Assembly (NCBI GenBank): GCA_003223415.1
Contig: QHUY01000012.1
Location: forward strand, 1-51,884
Direction of reading: 5' to 3'
DNA length: 51,884 nucleotides
From: Gemmatimonadota bacterium
GTDB taxonomy: Bacteria; Gemmatimonadota; Gemmatimonadetes; Gemmatimonadales; GWC2-71-9
The notes under the pieces were generated by a model. The model had not been told where the DNA came from, did not search any database, and worked only from the letters and a program-made list of their open reading frames with translations. Of this stretch, positions 2,436 to 44,268 are shown in pieces. The translations under genes and the position numbers were made by a program. The stretch's first letter is position 1; each line of letters starts with the position of its first letter.

Positions 2436-2451
2436 GGCAAGGTTCGCGCCA
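2436..2451 (-). promoter_or_regulatory. Sigma-54-type promoter of the PKD lipoprotein gene
   Basis: On the minus strand it reads TGGCGCGAACCTTGCC: GG and GC separated by exactly 10 nt, with TTGC at -12, against the consensus TGGCACG-N4-TTGC. It lies 70 nt upstream of the ATG. The same element stands in front of three paralogues. No copy of the ACTGSYRC upstream motif was found here. Confidence 0.7.
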
Positions 2452-2616: not shown

Positions 2617-3721
2617 TCAGAATGCCCCGATGTTGAAGGGTGAGCTTACCACGCGCAGGTTCAGGACGGGCACCGCCGCTTGGAGGGTGTAGCCGTTCCC
2701 CGGCAGGTTGGGCTGGTCAATGCACAGGTTGCTGAACCGAGCGACGCCATTGACGGCGGGGACCGTCAACGTGCCGGACAGCGTGCCGGCTGTGAGGGCC
2801 CCGGCGTTGTGCGCGATCGCAATGGTCACAGTTCCGTTATAGGTGCTGACCGTGCTGCCCAGGTCGTCCTCCGCAGTGACCTCCACCGGCGGCATAGTGA
2901 CCGGGCAGGGCAACGAAGTACTCGGCTGGACGGTGAAGGCCAGCTTCGTCACCGCCTCGTTGAGCGTGAGCACGGAGCCCAGCCACGTGCTGGGCGAGTT
3001 GAAGTACCAGTTCCACGTCGGATGGACGGGGCCCGTGGTAGCCGGCACGAGCTCCTCCCCGTCAACCACCATCCACGAGTCAGACATGGTGCTGACATTC
3101 GTCCAGCCCACAGGTTTGTCGGCGCCGACCAATGCGCTCGACATCGACACGCCATATGCGAGCGAGCCGGCGCCCACGGTGACGGCGCCGGGATCGGCCA
3201 CCGTAGGATACGTGGAGCCGGAGCCCGAGGCCTGACCATGTCCGCCCAACGCCTGCGCGTAGATCGGGAACACGCCGCTATATGACTTCATCACGATCCC
3301 GCCGTCGACCACCGGGGCCGAGAGGGTCGCTCTGACCGCGAGGATCGAATCTTGGATGGGGGCTGAGTACGCGTCGGGAAAGCCCTGCACGTTGGTCGCG
3401 ACATACGTCGCCATCGAGATGCCGCCGGCCGTGACGTAGTCGACCAGGTTGTACGTGTTGCCGACTACCGGATAGCCAGGCAAGGTCAGGACGTCGGTCA
3501 CCGAACTGATGGTGGCCGAGCCGATCCAGAAGAAGGTCACCACAATCGCGTCGCCGTGGTGCGGATTCGTGGGGTTGAACCCTTTGATGAGGGTCGTCCC
3601 GCTCTCGTTGAGCGTGCCGTTCTGTTGGCCGCCCACCACGACGAGCTCAGGGTACCTAGGACCGACGGACTCACTGCGCCACCAGCCCCGCAAGCCCAGC
3701 GACCGCCGTTCGCTTCGCCAT
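2617..3721 (-). pseudogene. Paralogous secreted lipoprotein with frameshifted signal peptide
   Basis: The expected start is ATG at 3721 behind AAGGAGGC (3728-3735), giving MAKRTAVAGLAGLVAQ and then a stop at 3671. The mature domain continues intact in another frame (SESVGPRYPELVVVGG... to NIGAF). Compared with the paralogue starting at 8455 (GLSGLLAAALLAVGCTESVGP), about 23 nt of the hydrophobic core are missing and the lipobox Cys codon TGC has become CGC. The body keeps the shared ~225-residue domain (motifs GGISMATYVATNVQ, STYPTVADPGA, WNWYFNSPSTWLGSVLTLN) and a C-terminal Ig-like domain, with no other lesion. A GTG at 3747 opens the body frame continuously, but it has no good ribosome site and yields no signal peptide. 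Promoter and ribosome site look intact, so the lesion may be recent or a sequencing error. Confidence 0.7.
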
Positions 3722-3768
3722 GATGCCGCCTCCTTGATGGGACACACCCGAACTCGCCCCTCTGTTTG

Positions 3769-3784
3769 GGCAAGGTTCGGGCCA
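3769..3784 (-). promoter_or_regulatory. Sigma-54-type promoter of the frameshifted paralogue
   Basis: The minus strand reads TGGCCCGAACCTTGCC, with GG-N10-GC spacing and TTGC at -12. It is located 48 nt before the ATG at 3721. It shares the core GAACCTTGCC with the promoters of the other three paralogues. Confidence 0.7.
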
Positions 3785-3833: not shown

Positions 3834-3876
3834 ACTGGTGCGCCAGCTCCTCGACACTCTATGGCACTGGTGCAAC
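3834..3876 (+). promoter_or_regulatory. Pair of candidate activator-binding sites
   Basis: ACTGGTGCGCC (3834-3844) and ACTGGTGCAAC (3866-3876) are 32 bp apart, about three helical turns, and lie 50-95 bp upstream of the sigma-54-type promoter at 3769. They match the motif found upstream of the genes starting at 5979, 8455 and 33067, in the same orientation relative to the promoter. Confidence 0.45.
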
Positions 3877-3894
3877 AACGGGATGGACTTGGGG

Positions 3895-28152: not shown

Positions 28153-28455
28153 CGCGTGGGGCCGCGGGGCCGTCGCCCCGCGCCACTCGGCCCACGGTGC
28201 AATCGCGGCGCGCGAGTGACAGCTTGTCAGCGGATGACCGCGCTTTCGCCGGGGCCGGATCCGGGCGCTCCGCGCTAACTGCACGCCCCGAAGCGGGTTG
28301 ACGACGGTATCCCCAGCCACCGCGCGGCTGCACGAGTCCTGCACTACCGGTACCGTGGGCGCCAGGCGCGCCTCTTGATCAGCTGCGACTCGATAGCGAG
28401 TGCCGATCGCTCTCGCCGTGCTAGCCCGATTGTCATCCATCGAGGGGTGTGCCTC
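28153..28455. other. Divergent intergenic region, no gene seen
   Basis: The 303 bases between the weak glmS promoter element and the start at 28456 are GC-rich. They hold TTGACG near 28300 (part of GGGTTGACGACGG), a possible -35 without a good -10. No reading frame with a ribosome site and no RNA gene was recognised. Confidence 0.4.
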
Positions 28456-29397
28456 ATGCCTGATCGGAAGGCGAGCCGGCGCCCGCTGGTGCTCATCGCG
28501 GATGCTCATGAGTGGTCCGTCCGCTCGCTCGACAGCATCCTTGCTCCACAGGGCTACAAGGTCCTCGAAGTGCATACCGGCGCCGCGGTGCTGCGCGCCG
28601 TCTCGGCGCGCCAACCGGACGCCATCGTCCTCCATGAGGCCCTCCCCGAGATCGATGTCCTCAGCCTGGTGCGGGCCCTGCGTGATGAGTCCCGCGTGCC
28701 GCCCCAAACCCCGATCATCCTGGCCGCCGCGGGCCCCGCCTCGCGAGCGCTGCGCGTCGCGGCGCTGCGCGCGGGAGCGACCGACGTGTGGGGCCTGCCG
28801 ATGAACACCGACGAGCTGCTGCTCCGCCTCGAGGTGCAGTTGCGCGCCAAGTTCGCGGCCGATCGCGCCAGCGAGGAAGGGCTCGTGGACTGGGCAACGG
28901 GGCTCTACAACCACTTGGGCCTGGCGCGGTGCGTGCGGGACCTCGCCTCCCGGGCGATCCGCCGCCGCGCACCGCTCGCCTGCGTGGTGTTCGCCCCCGA
29001 CCTGGGGAGCCGGGAGCCGGACCACGTGCCTGCTGGCGTACGCGACGCCGCCATCACCGCTGTCGCCCAGGGCCTGAAGCAGGCCGGCCGCGCCTCTGAC
29101 GCCATCGGCCGGCTCGGGCCAAAGGAATTCGCTGTACTCGCACCTGATACCGACCCGGGCGGCGCCCTCCGCCTCGGGACTCGGCTGAGGGGCGCGATCG
29201 AGAGCTCGGGCGCTGCACGCGCCATCGTTCACGGGCTCAAGGTCCGCGCCGGCTATCACGGCGTAGACGATTTCCACGCGGCCGGGCTGGACCCGCTCGA
29301 CCTGCTGGCGCACGCGACCAGCGCGCTGCGGGCCGCCGAAGCGGGCGGGACCGGCCTCTGGATCCGTCCCTTCCGGAGCGGCCTCCGCGTCGTCTGA
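28456..29397 (+). CDS. Degenerate receiver plus degenerate GGDEF domain protein (paralogue of 21857-22807)
   Basis: 313 aa from ATG 28456 behind GAGGGG. Residues ~10-125 have receiver topology (PLVLIADAHEWSVRSLDSIL, PDAIVLHEALPEIDVL, GATDVWGLPMNTDELL). The phospho-acceptor Asp is replaced by His (IVLHEALP) and the conserved Lys by Leu (GLPMN). Residues ~140-310 follow the GGDEF fold (DWATGLYNHLGLARC, APLACVVFAPDL), but the signature reads GPKEF. It aligns over its whole length with the minus-strand protein at 21857 (shared EEL/DELLLRLE, ATGLYN, FAVLAP). Neither phosphotransfer nor c-di-GMP synthesis is expected; a protein-protein or ligand-binding role is inferred. The only genes between the two paralogues are the phosphatase, GNAT, wecB, export and glmS set. 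Confidence 0.8.
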   Translation: MPDRKASRRPLVLIADAHEWSVRSLDSILAPQGYKVLEVHTGAAVLRAVSARQPDAIVLHEALPEIDVLSLVRALRDESRVPPQTPIILAAAGPASRALRVAALRAGATDVWGLPMNTDELLLRLEVQLRAKFAADRASEEGLVDWATGLYNHLGLARCVRDLASRAIRRRAPLACVVFAPDLGSREPDHVPAGVRDAAITAVAQGLKQAGRASDAIGRLGPKEFAVLAPDTDPGGALRLGTRLRGAIESSGAARAIVHGLKVRAGYHGVDDFHAAGLDPLDLLAHATSALRAAEAGGTGLWIRPFRSGLRVV

Positions 29398-30640: not shown

Positions 30641-33067
30641 TCAGGAGCGGTCCGGAAGCAGGATCTCGCTGGTCACCCCTCCCGGGTCCTCCTCCTGCAC
30701 CTCTGAGCCCGCGAGTGAATAGGAGTAGTAGGTGTAGGCGGCCCCGGGGCGCACGTCGTTCAGCACCGCGCCGAGCACGCGGATCGGCAATCGGTGGAGC
30801 ACCTCGACCTTAGCCTCGGCGAGGGTGCGGTCGGTGACGCCGGTGCGCAGCACCAGCAGCATACTCCCCGTGGCCGTGCCCAGGGCGTAGGGGTCCACGC
30901 CGGCAGCGAGCGGCGCGCTGTCCACGAGGATGACGTCGTAGCTCGGGCGCATCACCGTGATCAGGCGGGGCATCGCCACGGAGCAGAGCAACTCGGGGCC
31001 GCGATGCATGCGCGAGCCGGCGCCGATGAAGGACAGCAGCTGATGCGGCGTCCCCTGCACCACCTGGTCGACCGTAGCGCGACTCGCGAGCAGGTCGGTG
31101 AGCCCCGGACGGCGCGTGCCCCGCAGGGCGCGGTGCAGCACGCCCAGCCGGACGTCGCCATCAATGAGCAGCGTGCGGTAGCCCACGTCCGCAAATGCCT
31201 GGGCCAGGTTGGACGTGACGAAGGACTTGCCCTCGCCGCGGCCCGGGCTGCTGACGGTGATGAGGAGCGGCCCCGCCGCGCCGTACGCGTGCTGGAGATT
31301 CAGGCGGATACCCCGCAGCGCTTCGACGGCCTTGGCGATGTCGTCCTCCCCGCCCGCACGCCGCTTTCCGTTCCCCCGCTGCACGTGCGGGACGGCGCCG
31401 AGGATCGGCAGTCCTATGGCGCGGGTCACCTCGTCGGGGTAGCGGACTTTCGGGTCGGCGCGCTCGAGCAGCACGGCGCCCAGCACGCCCGCGCCGAGGC
31501 TCATGATGCAGGCGACGATGATCACTAGCGGCGCGGTGTCGCTCACGGGGCGGGTCGGCCGCACCGCCGGCTCGAGGATGCGCACGTCCGGGAGGGTGCT
31601 CACCTCCGCCAGGCGGGCCTCCTGGTAGCGCTGCTGCAGGTTGGAGAACAGCTGTTCTGCGTTCGCCTGGTCGCGCGCGAGCCGCACCTCCTCGAGAGCC
31701 ACAGGCGGCGCGCTCCGCAGGTCGCGGGAGATGGAGTCGATGCGCTGCTGCAGCTCGTGCTCCCGTGCCGCGAGCCCGGCGACCACCGCGCGGCCCAGCT
31801 CGGGGATCACGCGCCGCGCGAGGGTGTCCACCTGCTGCGCGAGGCGTCGCACCGGCGGGTGGGTGTCGGCGTAGCGGAAGCGCATGACGCGCAGCTCGGC
31901 CTGCCGGTCCGACAGCTCTTTCAGGGCCGCCGTCAGCTCGGAAGCGTGTTGCACCGCGCTGATCATCGCGAGCTGGTCCACGGCGACGCCCGAATCGGCC
32001 GCGTGCGCCACCACGCGCGCGATCGCCTCGCGGTCGTGGGCCAGCGCGCCCAGCGCGACCTGGAGATCCACATAGCTCGCGAAGGTGGGGTCGGCGGTGA
32101 TGCGGCGACCGTCCGGCCCCTGCGCCGGACCCTCGGAGGGGCGGACCGCGTTGCGGACGCGGAAGGCAGTGAGCCCCCGCTCCGCCGCGCGCAGATTGGT
32201 CTCGGCGCGGTCGAGCTGGTCTTTCAGGATCGCCGTGAGCTCGGTGAGCCGCTGCCGCTTCAGGTCCGCTGCCGCCGCCACGAAGCGCTCCGCGACCGCG
32301 TTCACCGTCCGGGTCACGACGGCCGCATCCGGGCCACGGCGCTCGATGCGCACGAAGTTCCCGTCCGTCCCCGCGCGGACCCGCAGCTCCTCGGAGAGCT
32401 TCTGCGCCGCCTCGCTGGTCGTCGCCACCGTGAACTGAACGCTCGCGCCGGGCCGCAGCACCGCTGCGGGCGGGACCCAGGTGAACCCGAGCGTGGCGCC
32501 CACGGAGTCGCCAACGGCGCCCTCCTGCAGCACAACCTTCGCGTCGACGTCGAGCAGCCGGAAGCGGTTCGCGGCGGCGGCCACCTCGAGCCGGTAACGC
32601 CCGGGTCGGACGTCGCCCGGCACGGTGAGCGTCGCCAGCGCCGCGCTGTCGGCGGCGGACTGCGGCTTGAGGTAGAGGCGCCATTGCCGCACGACATCGT
32701 CGAGCACGACGTGCGACCGGAGCAGGTCGAGCCATCCCGTCGCCGTGCCGAGCAGCTGCCCGCTTTGGAACGGTCCCTGGTCCCGCTCGTGAGCGGACTG
32801 ATCCGGGATCTCGAGCCACACCGTGGCCCGGGCCTGGTACGTCGGCTTGAGGAACCGCGCCCCGATGATGCCTGCGAGCGTGCCGACGCCCGTCACGGCG
32901 ATGACGAGCCACCGGTACGTCCGGATCGCCGTGACGACGCGGCGCCAGTCCTCCGGCGGTGGGGCTTCATCCCGGCGCGGGGCGAGACGGGCGGCCGTCG
33001 CTGCCGCGAGCACGAGCCGGCGATCGGGCGCCGACTGCTCGGGATCCGCGGTGGGGTCGCTCGGCAT
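30641..33067 (-). CDS. Wzc-like polysaccharide co-polymerase and tyrosine autokinase
   Basis: 808 aa inner-membrane protein controlling polysaccharide chain length and export. First transmembrane helix at ~50-70 (LVIAVTGVGTLAGIIGA); Wzz-like periplasmic domain with long coiled coils (~235-500); second helix at ~510-532 (PLVIIVACIMSLGAGVLGAV). The cytoplasmic BY-kinase has Walker A SSPGRGEGKSFVTSNLA (~603-619), Walker A' TLLIDGDVRLG, and Walker B YDVILVDSAPL. A C-terminal Tyr cluster YTYYSYS (~775-782) is the usual autophosphorylation tail. Start ATG 33067. It is divergent from the NtrC-type activator gene, with a strong sigma-54-type promoter and two upstream direct repeats between them. The degenerate receiver-GGDEF proteins and the two phosphatases in the window could act on this pathway, but this is inference. 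Confidence 0.93.
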   Translation of the reverse strand: MPSDPTADPEQSAPDRRLVLAAATAARLAPRRDEAPPPEDWRRVVTAIRTYRWLVIAVTGVGTLAGIIGARFLKPTYQARATVWLEIPDQSAHERDQGPFQSGQLLGTATGWLDLLRSHVVLDDVVRQWRLYLKPQSAADSAALATLTVPGDVRPGRYRLEVAAAANRFRLLDVDAKVVLQEGAVGDSVGATLGFTWVPPAAVLRPGASVQFTVATTSEAAQKLSEELRVRAGTDGNFVRIERRGPDAAVVTRTVNAVAERFVAAAADLKRQRLTELTAILKDQLDRAETNLRAAERGLTAFRVRNAVRPSEGPAQGPDGRRITADPTFASYVDLQVALGALAHDREAIARVVAHAADSGVAVDQLAMISAVQHASELTAALKELSDRQAELRVMRFRYADTHPPVRRLAQQVDTLARRVIPELGRAVVAGLAAREHELQQRIDSISRDLRSAPPVALEEVRLARDQANAEQLFSNLQQRYQEARLAEVSTLPDVRILEPAVRPTRPVSDTAPLVIIVACIMSLGAGVLGAVLLERADPKVRYPDEVTRAIGLPILGAVPHVQRGNGKRRAGGEDDIAKAVEALRGIRLNLQHAYGAAGPLLITVSSPGRGEGKSFVTSNLAQAFADVGYRTLLIDGDVRLGVLHRALRGTRRPGLTDLLASRATVDQVVQGTPHQLLSFIGAGSRMHRGPELLCSVAMPRLITVMRPSYDVILVDSAPLAAGVDPYALGTATGSMLLVLRTGVTDRTLAEAKVEVLHRLPIRVLGAVLNDVRPGAAYTYYSYSLAGSEVQEEDPGGVTSEILLPDRS

Positions 33068-33139
33068 CGCGTGTGGTCCGGGTTTCGGGTGAGACGCGTA
33101 GCGCGGTTTGAACAGCCCGCGCCGGTGCCCTCAGGCTGC

Positions 33140-33155
33140 TGCAAGCACGGTACCG
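33140..33155 (-). promoter_or_regulatory. Sigma-54-type promoter of the Wzc-like operon
   Basis: The minus strand reads CGGTACCGTGCTTGCA. GG and GC are separated by exactly 10 nt and the -12 half is a full TTGCA. Predicted start is near 33129, giving a leader of about 62 nt. The divergent gene encodes a sigma-54 activator. Confidence 0.72.
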
Positions 33156-33246
33156 CCACCCCCCCACCGGGGCGGCAGCGCAAAGTCCCCCTGCGCAGGT
33201 ACATGGGCGCGCCGTGCCGGCGCCACCCGGGAGCCACGCAAAAACC

Positions 33247-33266
33247 TGTCACACAACTGCCACAAC
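33247..33266 (+). promoter_or_regulatory. Candidate activator site 1 (direct repeat)
   Basis: TGTCACACAACTGCCACAAC matches the repeat at 33328 in 16 of 20 positions. It lies about 100 bp upstream of the sigma-54-type promoter at 33140, a normal enhancer distance. It shares CACACAACTGCC with the site at 8553. Confidence 0.6.
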
Positions 33267-33306
33267 CTGTAGGTCGTTCCACGCGTTCGGGTTCGGCCGT
33301 TGCGTC

Positions 33307-33335
33307 TTGACAGGAGGGTACGAAACGTGTCACTT
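33307..33335 (+). promoter_or_regulatory. Possible housekeeping promoter of the activator gene
   Basis: A perfect TTGACA (33307-33312) is followed after 17 nt by TCACTT, a poor -10. The -10 overlaps activator site 2, which would permit autoregulation. Confidence 0.3.
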
Positions 33336-33347
33336 CACTGCCGCAAC
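33328..33347 (+). promoter_or_regulatory. Candidate activator site 2 (direct repeat)
   Basis: TGTCACTTCACTGCCGCAAC is spaced exactly 81 bp from site 1 and has the same orientation. It lies about 180 bp upstream of the Wzc-like promoter and 78 bp before the activator start codon. Confidence 0.6.
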
Positions 33348-33424
33348 TCATGCCCTCCTCACCTCGCCGTCGTCGGCGCTGGTCAGCGACGGGAGGGAAG
33401 ACGCCGTACTTGGAGGAGTGGCCG

Positions 33425-34966
33425 ATGCATGCGCCCATCGCTCGTGACGAGACTGCCGTGACTCTCCGTTCCGGCCCGCCTGCCGGGGCGTCCAGCCTCA
33501 CAGACCTGATCTCCATATCGGAGGCGGTCCGCCAAAGCGTCCGCGTGCTCGTGATCGACGACGAGCGCACGCTGCGCGAGAGTTGCGCCAGCGTGCTCGG
33601 CGCCGAGGGATACCACGTCACCACTTCGGGCCGCGGGGGCGAGGCCCTCGAGACCCTGAAGCGGCGCGCGTTCGACATCGTCCTCATCGATCTCTACATG
33701 GCGGAGGTGCCGGGGATAGAGCTGCTCAAGGCCGCGCTCGCCACGTACCGGGATACGATCGCCATCGTCATCACCGGCAAGCCGAGTGTCGAATCGAGCC
33801 TCGAGGTGCTGCGTGCGGGCGCGTGGGACTATCTCCCCAAGCCGTTCACCGGCACGCAGCTGCAGATTTTGATCGGCCGCGCCGCCCACGCCGTCGTGGT
33901 CGCGCGCGAGACCCGCGCGCAGGAACCGCCCGGCCACACCGGCGCCAACACCAGCGATCGCGTGATGGCGCTCGGCACCGCGCCGCTGTTCCGCCAGGCG
34001 ATCGAGCTGGCACGCAAGGTGGCGGCGACCGACGCGTCGGTATTCATCACCGGCGAGAGCGGCGCGGGCAAGGAGCTCGTCGCGCAGTTCATCCACGCGC
34101 ACAGCCGGCGTCACATCCGTCCGATCGTCGCGGTGAATTGCGCTGCGCTGCCCGAGTCGCTGCTCGAGTCGGAGATGTTCGGACACGTGAAGGGCGCTTT
34201 CACCGGCGCCGTCCGTGACAAGTCCGGCCTGCTCGAAATGGCGAACGGCGGCACGTTGTTCCTGGACGAGCTTATCGAGATGGCGGCGCCGATCCAGGCC
34301 AAGCTGCTGCGCGTGATCCAGGATGGCGTCGTGCGGCGCGTGGGAAGTGAAACGACGGACGCCGTCGTGAACGTGCGCTTCATCGCCGCCACGAACCGCG
34401 ACCCCGAGCAAGCGGTGCGCGCCGGGGCCTTGCGCAAGGATCTGTACTACCGACTGCGGGTCGTGCCGATTCACGTTCCGGCCCTGCGCGAGCGCCCGGA
34501 AGACATCCCGCTGCTGGCGAATCACTTTCTCGAGTGCTTCTGGAAGGCGCACCGCGGCGCGAACCTGCCGGCGCCCAAGCTCACCAAGGCAGCGATCTGG
34601 GCGCTCCGAGCCTACGCCTGGCCGGGCAACGTGCGGGAACTGCAGAACGTGATTGAGCACGCCGCGGTACTGCTCGAGCCGGGAGCCAAGGTCCGGCCCG
34701 AGGACATCCCGTTCCTGGGTGACACCGCGCAGCCGGAGCCGGAGGCGGCGGCCGACAGCGCTCTCGCCGACGACGGCTACTATGTCGCGCGCGAATCTCT
34801 GCTCGCCAAGTTCGACCGCCGCTTCCTGACCAAGGTCGTGATTCGGGCCGGTGGCAACCTTTCCAAAGCGGCCCGCATGGCGCGGTTGGACCGGACGACG
34901 TTCTACCGGCTGATGGAGCGGTACCAGTTGCACCGCGACTCGCTGGCGAACGCGACCGACGAATGA
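33425..34966 (+). CDS. NtrC-family sigma-54-dependent response regulator
   Basis: 513 aa from ATG 33425, preceded by GGAGGAG (33412-33418). The receiver domain is ~38-155 (VLVIDDERTLRESCASVL, phospho-acceptor Asp in IVLIDLYMAEVPG, conserved Lys in YLPKPF). The AAA+ domain is ~185-420 with Walker A GESGAGKE, the sigma-54-contacting GAFTGA loop intact (HVKGAFTGAVRDKSG), Walker B GGTLFLDELIEM, and arginine-finger region ATNRDPEQAV...LRKDLYYRL. The C-terminal Fis-type helix-turn-helix is ~470-505 (GGNLSKAARMARLDRTTFYRLMERY). It should bind dyads or repeats far upstream and activate sigma-54 promoters on phosphorylation. The histidine kinase gene overlaps its stop (ATGA). The direct repeats in its own upstream region are natural binding-site candidates. 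Confidence 0.96.
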   Translation: MHAPIARDETAVTLRSGPPAGASSLTDLISISEAVRQSVRVLVIDDERTLRESCASVLGAEGYHVTTSGRGGEALETLKRRAFDIVLIDLYMAEVPGIELLKAALATYRDTIAIVITGKPSVESSLEVLRAGAWDYLPKPFTGTQLQILIGRAAHAVVVARETRAQEPPGHTGANTSDRVMALGTAPLFRQAIELARKVAATDASVFITGESGAGKELVAQFIHAHSRRHIRPIVAVNCAALPESLLESEMFGHVKGAFTGAVRDKSGLLEMANGGTLFLDELIEMAAPIQAKLLRVIQDGVVRRVGSETTDAVVNVRFIAATNRDPEQAVRAGALRKDLYYRLRVVPIHVPALRERPEDIPLLANHFLECFWKAHRGANLPAPKLTKAAIWALRAYAWPGNVRELQNVIEHAAVLLEPGAKVRPEDIPFLGDTAQPEPEAAADSALADDGYYVARESLLAKFDRRFLTKVVIRAGGNLSKAARMARLDRTTFYRLMERYQLHRDSLANATDE

Positions 34967-36099
34967 GCGCGCCGTCCCGCACCCCGGCACCGAGCCTGCC
35001 CAAGCGCACGACCCCGACCGGCTTGACGTTGGACGGCAGCAGCGAGCCCCTGGCCGGGGTCCACGCGTCGGTCATCACCGTCGTGACCCAGCGGGTCGCA
35101 CGCCGGCTGCGGGACGAAGCGGTGGACGTCGCCCAATCGGATGCCGCGACCTCGCTGCTCGCCGCCATCGCCCTGGCCGTGGTCCGGCGGCACCCCGATT
35201 TCGTGTCGATGCTCCTGCCCCGTCCCTCCGCGCAACTGGGGCAGCGGCTCGTCGAGATGCTGCACACCGAGCTCCTCAGGTGCTGGGCCGAGGGCCGCTC
35301 CCAGACGCCGCCGTCCGACATCCTCGACGCCCTGACGGGCCTCGAACAGGTGCGGCTCGCCCTGGCGCAGAAGCACGGACTGCAGCTGCACGAGGGATTC
35401 ACCGGGGCGGACGCGCTCGAGCTGTTCGTCGATGCCGCGCACGACCTGCGCAGCCCGCTCTCGGCGATCCTGTTCCTCGCCGAAACGCTGCACAGCGGCC
35501 GGAGCGGTGAGGTCAACAAGACGCAGCACCGCCAGCTTGGGCTCATCTACAGCGCCGCGCTCGGGCTGAGCGGGCTGGTGAACGACGCTCTCGACCTGGC
35601 CAACGACGGCCAAGAGCTCGCCGACAGCGAGCCCGCGCCGCTCTCCCTGAGCGAGTTGCTGGAGTCGGCCGCCGACATCGCACGGCCCATGGCCGAGGAA
35701 AAGGGCCTCCTGATCCGCCTCAGCGCGGCAGAGCCGGACCGCCGGCTGGGCCGCCCCGTGGCGCTGAGTCGGGTGCTCCTCAACCTCACGACCAACGCCC
35801 TCAAGTTCACCGACCAAGGGAGCGTGGACATCAGCTGCGCGGCCACGGGGCCGACGCGCATCGAGTTCTCGGTGCGCGACACCGGCCCCGGCATCCCCCC
35901 CCAGGCATTGGAGAGCCTGTACCTGCCGTTCCGCCGCGCCCGCGCTCGCGCTGATAGTTGCTTCTCGGGCACGGGGCTTGGCCTCGCGATCACACGCAAG
36001 CTGGTCGCCGCGTTGGGATCCAGGCTGCGAGTCGAGACCGGGAGCTTGGGGACGCGGTTCTATTTTGAGCTGGACCTCCCGGTCCTGCCGCATCCCTAG
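34963..36099 (+). CDS. Soluble sensor histidine kinase, partner of the NtrC-type regulator
   Basis: 378 aa; ATG overlaps the regulator's stop by 4 nt. The phospho-accepting His is in the H box FVDAAHDLRSPLSAILFLAE (~155-174). The catalytic domain has the N box VLLNLTTNALKFTDQGSV (~270-287), G1 VRDTGPGIPPQ (~303) and G2 GTGLGLAITRKLVAALG (~340). No transmembrane helix or signal peptide is present, so it senses a cytoplasmic cue or a partner. The N-terminal ~145 residues are helical with no known sensor fold recognised. The arrangement recalls PrsK/PrsR of PEP-CTERM systems, though PrsK is a membrane protein, so this is an analogy only. Confidence 0.92.
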   Translation: MSAPSRTPAPSLPKRTTPTGLTLDGSSEPLAGVHASVITVVTQRVARRLRDEAVDVAQSDAATSLLAAIALAVVRRHPDFVSMLLPRPSAQLGQRLVEMLHTELLRCWAEGRSQTPPSDILDALTGLEQVRLALAQKHGLQLHEGFTGADALELFVDAAHDLRSPLSAILFLAETLHSGRSGEVNKTQHRQLGLIYSAALGLSGLVNDALDLANDGQELADSEPAPLSLSELLESAADIARPMAEEKGLLIRLSAAEPDRRLGRPVALSRVLLNLTTNALKFTDQGSVDISCAATGPTRIEFSVRDTGPGIPPQALESLYLPFRRARARADSCFSGTGLGLAITRKLVAALGSRLRVETGSLGTRFYFELDLPVLPHP

Positions 36100-41888: not shown

Positions 41889-43119
41889 CGGACGTCCCGC
41901 CGTGAAAGGGATCGTGCGGCTGGGCCTCTACACGGTCCTGGCCGCGATCCCGTTCGAGCTGCCCAACCGTCAGACGCTTCCGGTCGAGATCCCCACCCTT
42001 GCGGGAGCGATCTTCCTCGCGACCGCGCTGCTCCAGCCCCGGCGCTGCTTCGGTCGCGTGCCGCTGCCCGTGTGGTGGTTCCTTGGCTACCTCTTCGTCT
42101 TCGCGCTCGCCACGAGCCTCAACTTCCTCAACGACGCCGGGGAGGTCCTGCACCTCTTTCTGCTGATCTTCCAGAGCGCCTTGGTCTTCTGGGCCGCGTC
42201 GAACGTGCTCGAGGACGAATCGGTCACCTCAGGCGCCCTGCTCACGTTCGCCGGTGCCTGCTTGGTGCGCGCGGTGTTGCCGATGCTCGGGGTCGGGCGC
42301 ACCGCCACCATGGTGTGGACAGGGGGTGAGCGTCTCACCGCCTTCGGCCAGAACGAGAACAACGCCGCCATGTTCCTGTCGGCAGGACTGATCGCGCTCT
42401 TCGGCCTGGGGTACGCCCGGGCGCGCGCCGTGCTGCGTCCCCGCCTCCTCGTCTTGCCCGGCTGCGCGCTGATTGCCTACGCGGCGATCGAGACGGGCTC
42501 CCGCGGCGGGCTCGTCGCGCTCGTTGCGGGGCTCGCGACGTTCGCGCTGTCACAAGGGCAGACCGCCTGGCAGCGGGTGCGCCACGGCATCCTGGCCCTG
42601 TTCGGCCTCGCCGCTCTCCTCTGGGGAGCCTACCAGACACCGGTGATGCGGAACCGGTTACGCGAGACGACGGAGTCCGGAAGAATGGCGGGACGGGAGA
42701 ACGTCTATCCCACGGTCGCGCAGATGGTCATCGAGAAGCCGCTCTTCGGGTGGGGGCCGGAGAACAACCAGTACGAGCTGTCGGTCCGCGAGGGCTATCG
42801 TTTGAGCCGTCGAGACACGCATAACCTCCTGCTGGAAACCCTCAGCTCCACCGGTCTCCTGGGGGCAATTGTGTTCTGCATCGGCGTCGGGCTGTGCGTC
42901 CGCGCCGCGTGGCTGGCCCGGGCGGGACCCGAGCGCGTCCTGCCGCTGGCGCTGACCGTCAGCGTGTTGATGGCGAACATGAGTGGCAACTGGATGGCTT
43001 CGAAGCTCCTGTGGGTCGTCTTCGCCTACGCCGTCGCCAGCGCGTGCCGCGTGGCGGCGCCGAGGCCGCCCGCAGTTGTCGCTGACGGTCTCCGGCGCTC
43101 AGGGCGGGCGCTTGTGTAA
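41881..43119 (+). CDS. O-antigen ligase/polymerase-like (Wzy_C) membrane protein
   Basis: 412 aa from GTG 41881, overlapping the flippase stop by 8 nt. About 10-11 predicted transmembrane helices. The family's large periplasmic loop is ~245-310 with RETTESGRMAGRENVYPTVA, EKPLFGWGPENNQYE and SRRDTHNLLLETLSSTGLLG; the R...GW..G...H pattern is typical of WaaL/Wzy_C domains. TAFGQNENNAAMF (~150) is another conserved region. It either polymerises repeat units or ligates the glycan to an acceptor; with Wzc, Wza-like and flippase present, polymerisation is likelier. It ends the first block of the plus-strand run; a 114-nt gap follows. Confidence 0.9.
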   Translation: MADGRPAVKGIVRLGLYTVLAAIPFELPNRQTLPVEIPTLAGAIFLATALLQPRRCFGRVPLPVWWFLGYLFVFALATSLNFLNDAGEVLHLFLLIFQSALVFWAASNVLEDESVTSGALLTFAGACLVRAVLPMLGVGRTATMVWTGGERLTAFGQNENNAAMFLSAGLIALFGLGYARARAVLRPRLLVLPGCALIAYAAIETGSRGGLVALVAGLATFALSQGQTAWQRVRHGILALFGLAALLWGAYQTPVMRNRLRETTESGRMAGRENVYPTVAQMVIEKPLFGWGPENNQYELSVREGYRLSRRDTHNLLLETLSSTGLLGAIVFCIGVGLCVRAAWLARAGPERVLPLALTVSVLMANMSGNWMASKLLWVVFAYAVASACRVAAPRPPAVVADGLRRSGRALV

Positions 43120-43233
43120 CACTCCTGCTACACGCGGCCCCATTCCTGCGCCGGGCGGCGCGTCTAACTGTCGCTCAAGCCGCGGGTTAGGGGATCGGCG
43201 CCCGCCGTACGGGTTCTGCAGGGAGATCGATTC

Positions 43234-44268
43234 GTGAATGCGCAGAAACCTATCGTGGCACCTGTGAAACCGACCGCAGCAGACCAGAGGACGACTGCCG
43301 ACGAGATGATCGGCTTCGTCTCGCCGCGCACCGGAGCGGCGCTCCGGCACGAGGGGGCCGCCCTGTGTTCCGGCGTCGGAGAGTGCGTGCCGGTGGTCCG
43401 CGGCATCCCACGCTTCGTGGCCTCCGACGGTTACGCCGAGGCGTTCGGGCTGCAGTGGAACCTGCACGCCCAGACGCAGCTCGACAGCCGCACCGGCGCG
43501 CGCCTGTCGCAGATCCGGCTCGAGCGGTGCACCGGCGTGCCCCTCGACCGGCTCGCGGGCCTTCGCGTGCTCGAAGCGGGGTGCGGCGCGGGTCGGTTCA
43601 CCGAGCTGCTGGTGCGGGCCGGTGCCTTCGTGCACGCCATCGACTTGAGCACCGCCGTGGAGGCGAATCGCCGCAACATCGGCGACCGGCCCAACTACGT
43701 CGTCGCCCAGGCGGATATCCGCGCGATGCCCTTCCCTCCCGGGGCGTTCGACATAGTGCTGTGCATCGGGGTGCTGCAGCACACGCCCTCCCCCGAGGAG
43801 AGCATCGGCGCGCTGTGGCGGATGCTCGCGCCGGGCGGCCTGCTGGTGATCGACCACTACACATGGAGCCTGTCCCGACTCACGAAGCTCGCGCCTCTCT
43901 ACCGAGTGATCCTCAAGCGGCTGCCTGCGGCGCGCGCGAAACGCATCACCGACGCTCTCGTGGATGTGTTCTTCCCGCTCCACTGGGCCGTGCGGCGCGC
44001 CCGGTCGCTGCAGATGCTCTTGAGCCGCGTCTCCCCGTGCCTCGCCTACTGCCACGTGCACCCGGAGTTGACCCGGGAGCAGCACGAAGACTGGTGCCGA
44101 CTCGACACCTACGACGAGCTCACCGACTACTACAAGCGGCTGCGCACGGCCGGCCAGATTCGGCGCTCGCTCGCCGCGCTCGGCGCCACGGAGATCCGTG
44201 CGGTGCGCCGCGGCAACGTGGTCGAGGCGACGTGTCGCAAGCCGCCGCAGCACCCATGTGCGGCCTAG
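43234..44268 (+). CDS. SAM-dependent class I methyltransferase
   Basis: 344 aa from GTG 43234 with GGGAG upstream. N-terminal residues ~20-65 resemble a Trm112-like segment (GFVSPRTGAALRHEGAAL, VPVVRGIPRFV) without the zinc Cys set. SAM-binding motif I is LRVLEAGCGAGRFTELLV (~110-127); motif II region is AIDLSTAVEANRRN. Post-motif strand FDIVLCIGVLQHTPSPEESI (~170) and APGGLLVIDHY follow. The C-terminal ~120 residues include a Tyr/His-rich region (YCHVHPELTREQHEDW) typical of sugar or small-molecule methyltransferases. It probably methylates a sugar of the polysaccharide. It overlaps the next gene by 13 nt. Confidence 0.87.
   Translation: MNAQKPIVAPVKPTAADQRTTADEMIGFVSPRTGAALRHEGAALCSGVGECVPVVRGIPRFVASDGYAEAFGLQWNLHAQTQLDSRTGARLSQIRLERCTGVPLDRLAGLRVLEAGCGAGRFTELLVRAGAFVHAIDLSTAVEANRRNIGDRPNYVVAQADIRAMPFPPGAFDIVLCIGVLQHTPSPEESIGALWRMLAPGGLLVIDHYTWSLSRLTKLAPLYRVILKRLPAARAKRITDALVDVFFPLHWAVRRARSLQMLLSRVSPCLAYCHVHPELTREQHEDWCRLDTYDELTDYYKRLRTAGQIRRSLAALGATEIRAVRRGNVVEATCRKPPQHPCAA

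Follow-up and report, generated by a model that had tools for sequence, protein, structure and literature searches.

What is the role of two similar 20-bp sequences that lie between a wzc-like gene for extracellular polysaccharide (EPS) export and the divergently transcribed gene of a sigma-54 activator in a Gemmatimonadota bacterium (GenBank assembly GCA_003223415.1, contig QHUY01000012.1)? The window, that is, the whole stretch of DNA analyzed here, comprises 51,884 nucleotides, and in a first-pass annotation the region between the two genes was taken for a built-in enhancer combined with an autoregulatory switch for capsule or EPS export. Our comparison with related loci indicates that the repeats are two copies of a site, common to Gemmatimonadota soil bacteria, for a regulator that most likely switches on EPS export from a sigma-54 promoter on one side and controls its own gene on the other.

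Two copies of a palindromic site

The repeats at 33247-33266 (TGTCACACAACTGCCACAAC) and 33328-33347 (TGTCACTTCACTGCCGCAAC) are identical at 16 of 20 positions and lie 81 bp apart, just as the first-pass annotation had described them. Extended to 25 nt (33242-33266 and 33323-33347), they agree at 20 positions with the same 81-bp spacing. Taken alone, these repeat statistics are modest evidence: when the intergenic region was shuffled 500 times with its dinucleotides preserved, a repeat of at least 16/20 arose in 24 cases (~5%), which is weak by itself, while one of 20/25 arose in a single case. The ~5% figure favors the view that the repeats are a functionless product of chance, a view that we find hardly credible and that is contradicted by all of the conservation and leave-out tests described below.

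Within each repeat lies an imperfect palindrome of 18 bp that belongs to the TGTTGC-N6-GCAACA class. On a matrix from whose training set the window, its closest relative (L039), and the two paralogous loci of its own genome were left out, the palindromes score 12.2 bits (copy 1) and 11.3 bits (copy 2), and a second-best site of this strength was seen in 1 of 1000 shuffles. The earlier description as direct repeats holds insofar as two similar copies are present, while the unit is the palindrome and not a plain direct repeat.

Other interpretations of the repeats were rejected. A sigma-54 promoter inside them (TGTCAC-N4-CTGCCA), judged by eye, is one base off in its spacing and lacks TGG. When the 20-mers were taken as a literal genome-wide motif, their other matches, at 2 to 3 mismatches, did not exceed a reversed control, and a pair with a 22-bp spacing from the same genome search (C63) was dropped with scores below 10 bits on the matrix.

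A site class that tracks the activator gene

Orthologous loci were collected from relatives of the same family and order and from named genomes, giving 102 distinct loci and 101 upstream regions. When inverted 3-mer pairs were counted in these regions without a seed, TGT-N12-ACA ranked first of 1418 (72 seen versus ~6 expected), and the pairs ranked next, TTG-N8-CAA, GTT-N10-AAC, and TGC-N6-GCA, nest into TGTTGC-N6-GCAACA. With a cross-validated matrix, 267 sites were found in 94 of the 101 regions, a density of 6.57/kb. Shuffles gave 0.43/kb, the upstream regions of 20 paralogous regulators 0.47/kb, and the activator coding sequence 0.70/kb. Sites as strong as copy 2 (11.3 bits) occur at ~0.1/kb or less in shuffles. 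A region usually contains several sites at roughly 21-bp multiples, and the spacings between neighbors cluster at 19 to 24, 39 to 46, and 61 to 68 bp, indicating that neighboring sites lie on one helix face.

The wzc gene is divergent from the activator gene in 72 of the 102 loci, and a kinase homolog follows the activator in 83. Sites are equally frequent with an adjacent wzc (66/72) and without one (24/27), and therefore they track the activator gene. Together with the background level upstream of paralogous regulators, this distribution speaks against the alternative that another EPS regulator binds the palindromes and the adjacent activator is just a member of the same regulon. That alternative draws on the fact that the motif is assigned by co-occurrence and on the further regulators encoded close by, for example, a receiver-GGDEF protein (28375-29397) with a homolog near the locus in many relatives. 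The sites are paired with sigma-54 promoters, which need an enhancer-binding protein, and the helix-turn-helix (HTH) domain of the activator is nearly invariant, so we regard control by a different regulator as quite improbable. Specifically, the recognition segment DRTT[F/L]YRL is near-invariant in 98 activator orthologs, as expected if the orthologs share one site.

Two loci of equal length and match, L135 and L136, belong to separate bins of one sample (DRR093004), labeled Gemmatimonadetes and Acidimicrobiia, respectively, probably due to a binning or labeling error. In the genome from which the window comes (G000), the wzc/activator divergon is present in three copies (contigs 5, 15, and 272), whose paralogous activators are 66 to 69% identical to that of the window; cross-talk among them is likely because the site class is common to them.

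A putative sigma-54 promoter facing wzc

A sequence of the sigma-54 type, CGGTACCGTGCTTGCA, faces wzc with -24 and -12 elements (Table 1), and its predicted start at ~33129 places the two sites of the window ~126 and ~207 bp upstream. In relatives, the distance from site to start is mostly 73 to 200 bp, and the window has the arrangement expected for an NtrC-family enhancer-binding protein, with palindromic sites ~80 to 200 bp upstream of a -24/-12 promoter. The strict form of the promoter faces wzc in 32 of the 102 loci, is found in none of them on the opposite strand, and occurs in 0.2% of shuffles. Across the 3.5-Mb genome, GGTAY-N5-TTGCW is present eight times, twice before wzc genes (in the window and on contig 15); because the other six places lack a good palindrome at the proper distance, the pattern alone is not specific. 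A single RpoN gene was found in the same genome (Sigma54_DBD, 211 bits). The proposed built-in enhancer is thus well supported by the family-wide palindromic sites and the conserved, predicted sigma-54 promoter facing wzc.

The activator and its proposed promoter

In a profile search, both genes of the divergent pair had the domain content that the first-pass annotation claimed for a Wzc and a sigma-54 activator. The wzc-like protein matches Pfam Wzz, GNVR, and CbiA and NCBIfam eps_fam, all above the cut-off, and ends in a Tyr-rich tail (YTYYSYS). The activator matches Response_reg (75.6 bits) and Sigma54_activat (219.4 bits) far over the cut-offs, has GAFTGA at residue 257, and contains a Walker A sequence, GESGAGKE. 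Its C-terminal HTH_8 match reaches 20.4 bits with a cut-off of 22, and the HTH is strongly conserved among orthologs. With its receiver and AAA+ domains, GAFTGA, and Walker A, the activator is an NtrC-family sigma-54 enhancer-binding protein of the response-regulator type. The ATG at 33425 was preferred as its start over that of a longer open reading frame (ORF) at 33350 in view of the GGAGGAG that precedes this ATG by 6 bp. The histidine kinase encoded downstream is likely its cognate sensor, in the same operon. The receiver-GGDEF gene near wzc hints at an input of cyclic di-GMP to the same EPS system.

The proposed promoter of the activator gene is of the sigma-70 type, with TTGACA and a weak -10 element (Table 1). 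The first-pass annotation had the second repeat overlapping TTGACA, which is incorrect: the 20-bp copy 2 begins 15 bp past the end of TTGACA and instead covers the -10 element. At this -10 position, TCACTT is found in L039 and TCTCTT in L110, the two closest relatives, and TAnnnn in most other loci. TTGAC[AT] faces the activator in 35 of 102 loci, versus 9 of 102 on the opposite strand, usually with TA 17 bp further on. TTGAC is most common 24 to 26 bp past the start of a palindrome and is sometimes inside or just before it, and in many relatives sites lie over or beside the -35/-10 elements of the activator. Because the TTGACA-N17 promoter is conserved and surrounded by sites, autoregulation of the activator is plausible.

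A different arrangement is seen in a paralogous activator subgroup (L042, L044, L045, L048, L049, L056, L119, L122, and L123), where a sigma-54-like sequence, TGGCCCGAWCCYTGCG, directly follows the palindrome and faces the activator. This hints at sigma-54-driven positive autoregulation in that subgroup.

Other EPS genes with the site

For seven of the 20 perfect TGTNGC-N6-GCNACA sites in the genome (Table 1), a sigma-54-like promoter in the correct orientation lies no more than 200 bp away (expectation per site, 3.2%; p = 2e-6). Sites one base off were found before a phosphopantetheinyl transferase gene near the paralogous wzc on contig 15 and, in the window, upstream of the gene at 2617-3747 (minus strand), whose 376-aa product matches no Pfam family. 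The latter gene is faced by TGGCCCGAACCTTGCC (3769-3784, minus strand), with the palindrome TATGGCACTGGTGCAACA (3860-3877) 85 bp upstream of it. Genes for XrtA-type polysaccharide deacetylases (TIGR03006), which were taken from relatives and lay outside the training set, have a site within 250 bp in 11 of 23 cases, as compared with 5% in shuffles; minus the two genes of this genome, the count is 9 of 21. EPS export as the target, as had been proposed, is supported by the gene content of the locus and by the recurrence of the site ahead of further EPS genes.

Table 1. Coordinates of the genes and regulatory elements at the wzc/activator locus, and perfect sites with a promoter elsewhere in the genome
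Feature	Position	Strand	Remarks
wzc-like gene	30641-33067	-	808 aa; Wzz, GNVR, and bacterial tyrosine (BY) kinase domains (polysaccharide co-polymerase/tyrosine autokinase)
Sigma-54 type -24/-12 promoter facing wzc	33155-33140	-	CGGTACCGTGCTTGCA; predicted start ~33129
Repeat copy 1, proposed enhancer (upstream activating sequence, UAS)	33242-33266	+	Palindrome 33247-33264, TGTCACACAACTGCCACA; ~126 bp 5' of predicted wzc start
-35 element TTGACA, proposed activator promoter	33307-33312	+	Same 17-bp gap to -10 in L039 and L110
Repeat copy 2, proposed autoregulatory operator and second UAS	33323-33347	+	Palindrome 33328-33345, TGTCACTTCACTGCCGCA; over -10 of activator promoter
Weak -10 element TCACTT	33330-33335	+	17 bp after TTGACA, inside repeat copy 2
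Shine-Dalgarno sequence GGAGGAG of activator	33412-33418	+	Read from sequence; 6 bp 5' of start
Sigma-54 activator gene	33425-34966	+	513 aa; receiver (REC), AAA+ with GAFTGA, Fis-type HTH
Histidine kinase gene	34963-36099	+	HisKA and HATPase_c; 4-bp overlap with activator stop
Perfect site with promoter	Contig 272		Upstream region of third wzc/activator paralog
Perfect site with promoter	Contig 156		Glycosyltransferase gene
Perfect site with promoter	Contig 132		Asparagine-synthase-type amidotransferase, nearest TIGR03108
Perfect site with promoter	Contig 31		369-aa protein without family match
Perfect site with promoter	Contig 234		Second glycosyltransferase gene
Perfect site with promoter	Contig 61		XrtA-type polysaccharide deacetylase, above TIGR03006 cut-off
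Perfect site with promoter	Contig 175		STAS protein gene

Elsewhere in the window, a site (TGTAACACTCCTGCTACA) lies within 43090-43240, in the interval between a Wzy-type gene and that of a methyltransferase. A stretch like it, comprising the site and part of its flanks, is also present on contig 26 of G000 (L096, ~1400-1560), which suggests a duplicated regulatory region. Another sequence, TGGCGCGAACCTTGCC (2436-2451, minus strand), is almost the same as the sigma-54-like element at 3784; it runs antisense in the ORF at 1626-2597 and has no site nearby.

A proposed enhancer divergon

The sites, the promoter sequences, the synteny, the conservation, and the association with EPS genes are direct observations. 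Very probably, the intergenic region is an enhancer divergon that combines activator-bound palindromes, a sigma-54 promoter of wzc, and a sigma-70-type promoter of the activator. Binding by this activator, activation, the sign of the autoregulation, and the signal are what we infer, as follows. The kinase encoded next door presumably phosphorylates the response regulator, which in its phosphorylated form would bind the TGTTGC-N6-GCAACA palindromes in the intergenic region. Site 1, perhaps together with site 2, would be the enhancer for the sigma-54 promoter, at which the bound activator would contact the sigma-54 polymerase and so turn on transcription of wzc and the genes that follow it. The activator itself would be transcribed from TTGACA, N17, and the weak -10 element within site 2; since site 2 covers this promoter, the activator on site 2 would lower its own synthesis, a negative feedback. 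The same activator or a close paralog in this genome would also switch on the other EPS genes with the same site.

We hold a broader proposal with about equal belief and doubt, namely that the palindrome is a conserved, Gemmatimonadota-wide operator of 18 bp, in many cases present as two to six helically phased sites, that acts in two ways: as a sigma-54 enhancer of a genome-wide EPS regulon (wzc, XrtA-type deacetylases, glycosyltransferases, and amidotransferases) and as an operator on the sigma-70 promoter of the activator. In these roles, it would correspond to the PrsR system of Proteobacteria but be independent of an exosortase.

Several observations weigh against the divergon as drawn for this window. 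The loci are related, and their counts are therefore not independent events. The 81-bp spacing of the window is at the edge of the next helical cluster, and its activator -10 element is poor. About two-thirds of the loci lack the strict sigma-54 pattern; most of these loci are more distant, and their promoter must have diverged further or lie at another place. With one mismatch allowed, the palindrome is not enriched genome-wide and falls below the reversed control; it was not used as evidence, and only strong or well-placed sites thus carry information. The site class is common to three paralogous activators in the genome, each of them a candidate binder of a given site. Finally, copy 2 is not a whole palindrome in L039 and L110, in which only its -10 half is conserved and the right half, TGCCGCAAC, is not, and the autoregulatory site of the window may be lineage-specific or in part a promoter look-alike.

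The activators of L039 and L110 are 84 and 79% identical to that of the window, and three blocks are kept in both loci: the sigma-54 element, copy 1 together with the flanking sequence (TGTCRC...ACAACCTGTRRG), and TTGACA-N17-TCNCTT. Where both divergent genes are conserved, copy 1 and the site class are thus conserved as well, while copy 2 as a whole palindrome is not; the conserved unit is therefore the single palindrome rather than the direct-repeat pair. The conservation of copy 1 and TTGACA-N17-TCNCTT but not of TGCCGCAAC favors a simpler explanation, in which copy 1 is the sole working enhancer and copy 2 is the activator -10 element (GTCACTT), its likeness to copy 1 being largely accidental and no autoregulation taking place there. 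This explanation is possible but rather unlikely in our estimate, given the 11.3 bits of copy 2 on the left-out matrix, a strength found at ~0.1/kb or less in shuffles, and the many relatives with sites over or beside the activator -35/-10 elements.

Comparison with known systems

Links between sigma-54 activators and polysaccharide genes have been described in other phyla. In Proteobacteria, the PrsK/PrsR system is associated with a 17-nt "PEP-CTERM box", sometimes repeated, 5' of a -24/-12 sigma-54 promoter; the box ends in TTTACA, and its reported occurrences, all of them in Proteobacteria, precede PEP-CTERM genes (Haft et al. 2006, PMC1569441). Like PrsR, the activator described here is an NtrC-family response regulator encoded beside EPS genes, with a motif upstream of a -24/-12 promoter, while the motif is TGTTGC-N6-GCAACA, in Gemmatimonadota, before EPS genes. 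Membership in PrsR was rejected with a score of 344.7 bits against a cut-off of 502.6, a different box, and no exosortase match (TIGR02602) in the genome assembly, which is 97.5% complete. AtoC (NF008469) was likewise rejected, with 368.3 bits against a curated cut-off of 714.

A report on Desulfovibrio vulgaris (PMC4641369) describes six one-component activators divergent from sigma-54 promoters and assigns the response regulators DVU0110 and DVUA0057 to EPS and biofilm operons. These systems belong to a different phylum, and a site of TGTTGC-N6-GCAACA sequence is not given in the text searched. In Vibrio, VpsR and BrpR are regulators of the enhancer-binding-protein type for EPS loci that include wzc and wza homologs (PMC8268162); unlike in those systems, a canonical GAFTGA protein and a sigma-54 promoter at the target are found here. 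Sigma-54 is, moreover, broadly linked to the cell exterior (PMC3162934).

An earlier description of this operator, of its EPS gene set, or of sigma-54 control of EPS in Gemmatimonadota was not found in a search of open-access literature; the divergon design is familiar, while the operator and its regulon are apparently undescribed. Gemmatimonadota are common in soil and known mostly from metagenomes, and how they control their matrix polysaccharide does not seem to have been described. An operator that marks sigma-54-controlled EPS genes throughout the group would be a handle for sequence-based prediction of regulons, and with it the connection of sigma-54 with EPS, as in PrsR, would be extended to a genome without a detected exosortase.

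The closest likeness in design is to pspF-pspA of Escherichia coli and relatives, where the enhancer sites lie in the intergenic region shared by the activator gene and its divergent sigma-54 target. The same arrangement is found here: the activator gene and the predicted sigma-54 promoter point away from each other, and the proposed enhancer sites lie between them. PspF keeps its own level low through negative feedback (PMC7229158), a feedback that at our locus is proposed from the position of site 2. PspF lacks a receiver and is controlled by PspA, whereas the Gemmatimonadota activator contains one and is encoded next to a histidine kinase, its proposed target is EPS export, and its site differs in sequence. 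Judged from sequence comparison, the mechanism is most likely that of a pspF/pspA-like divergon with an NtrC-family response regulator in control.
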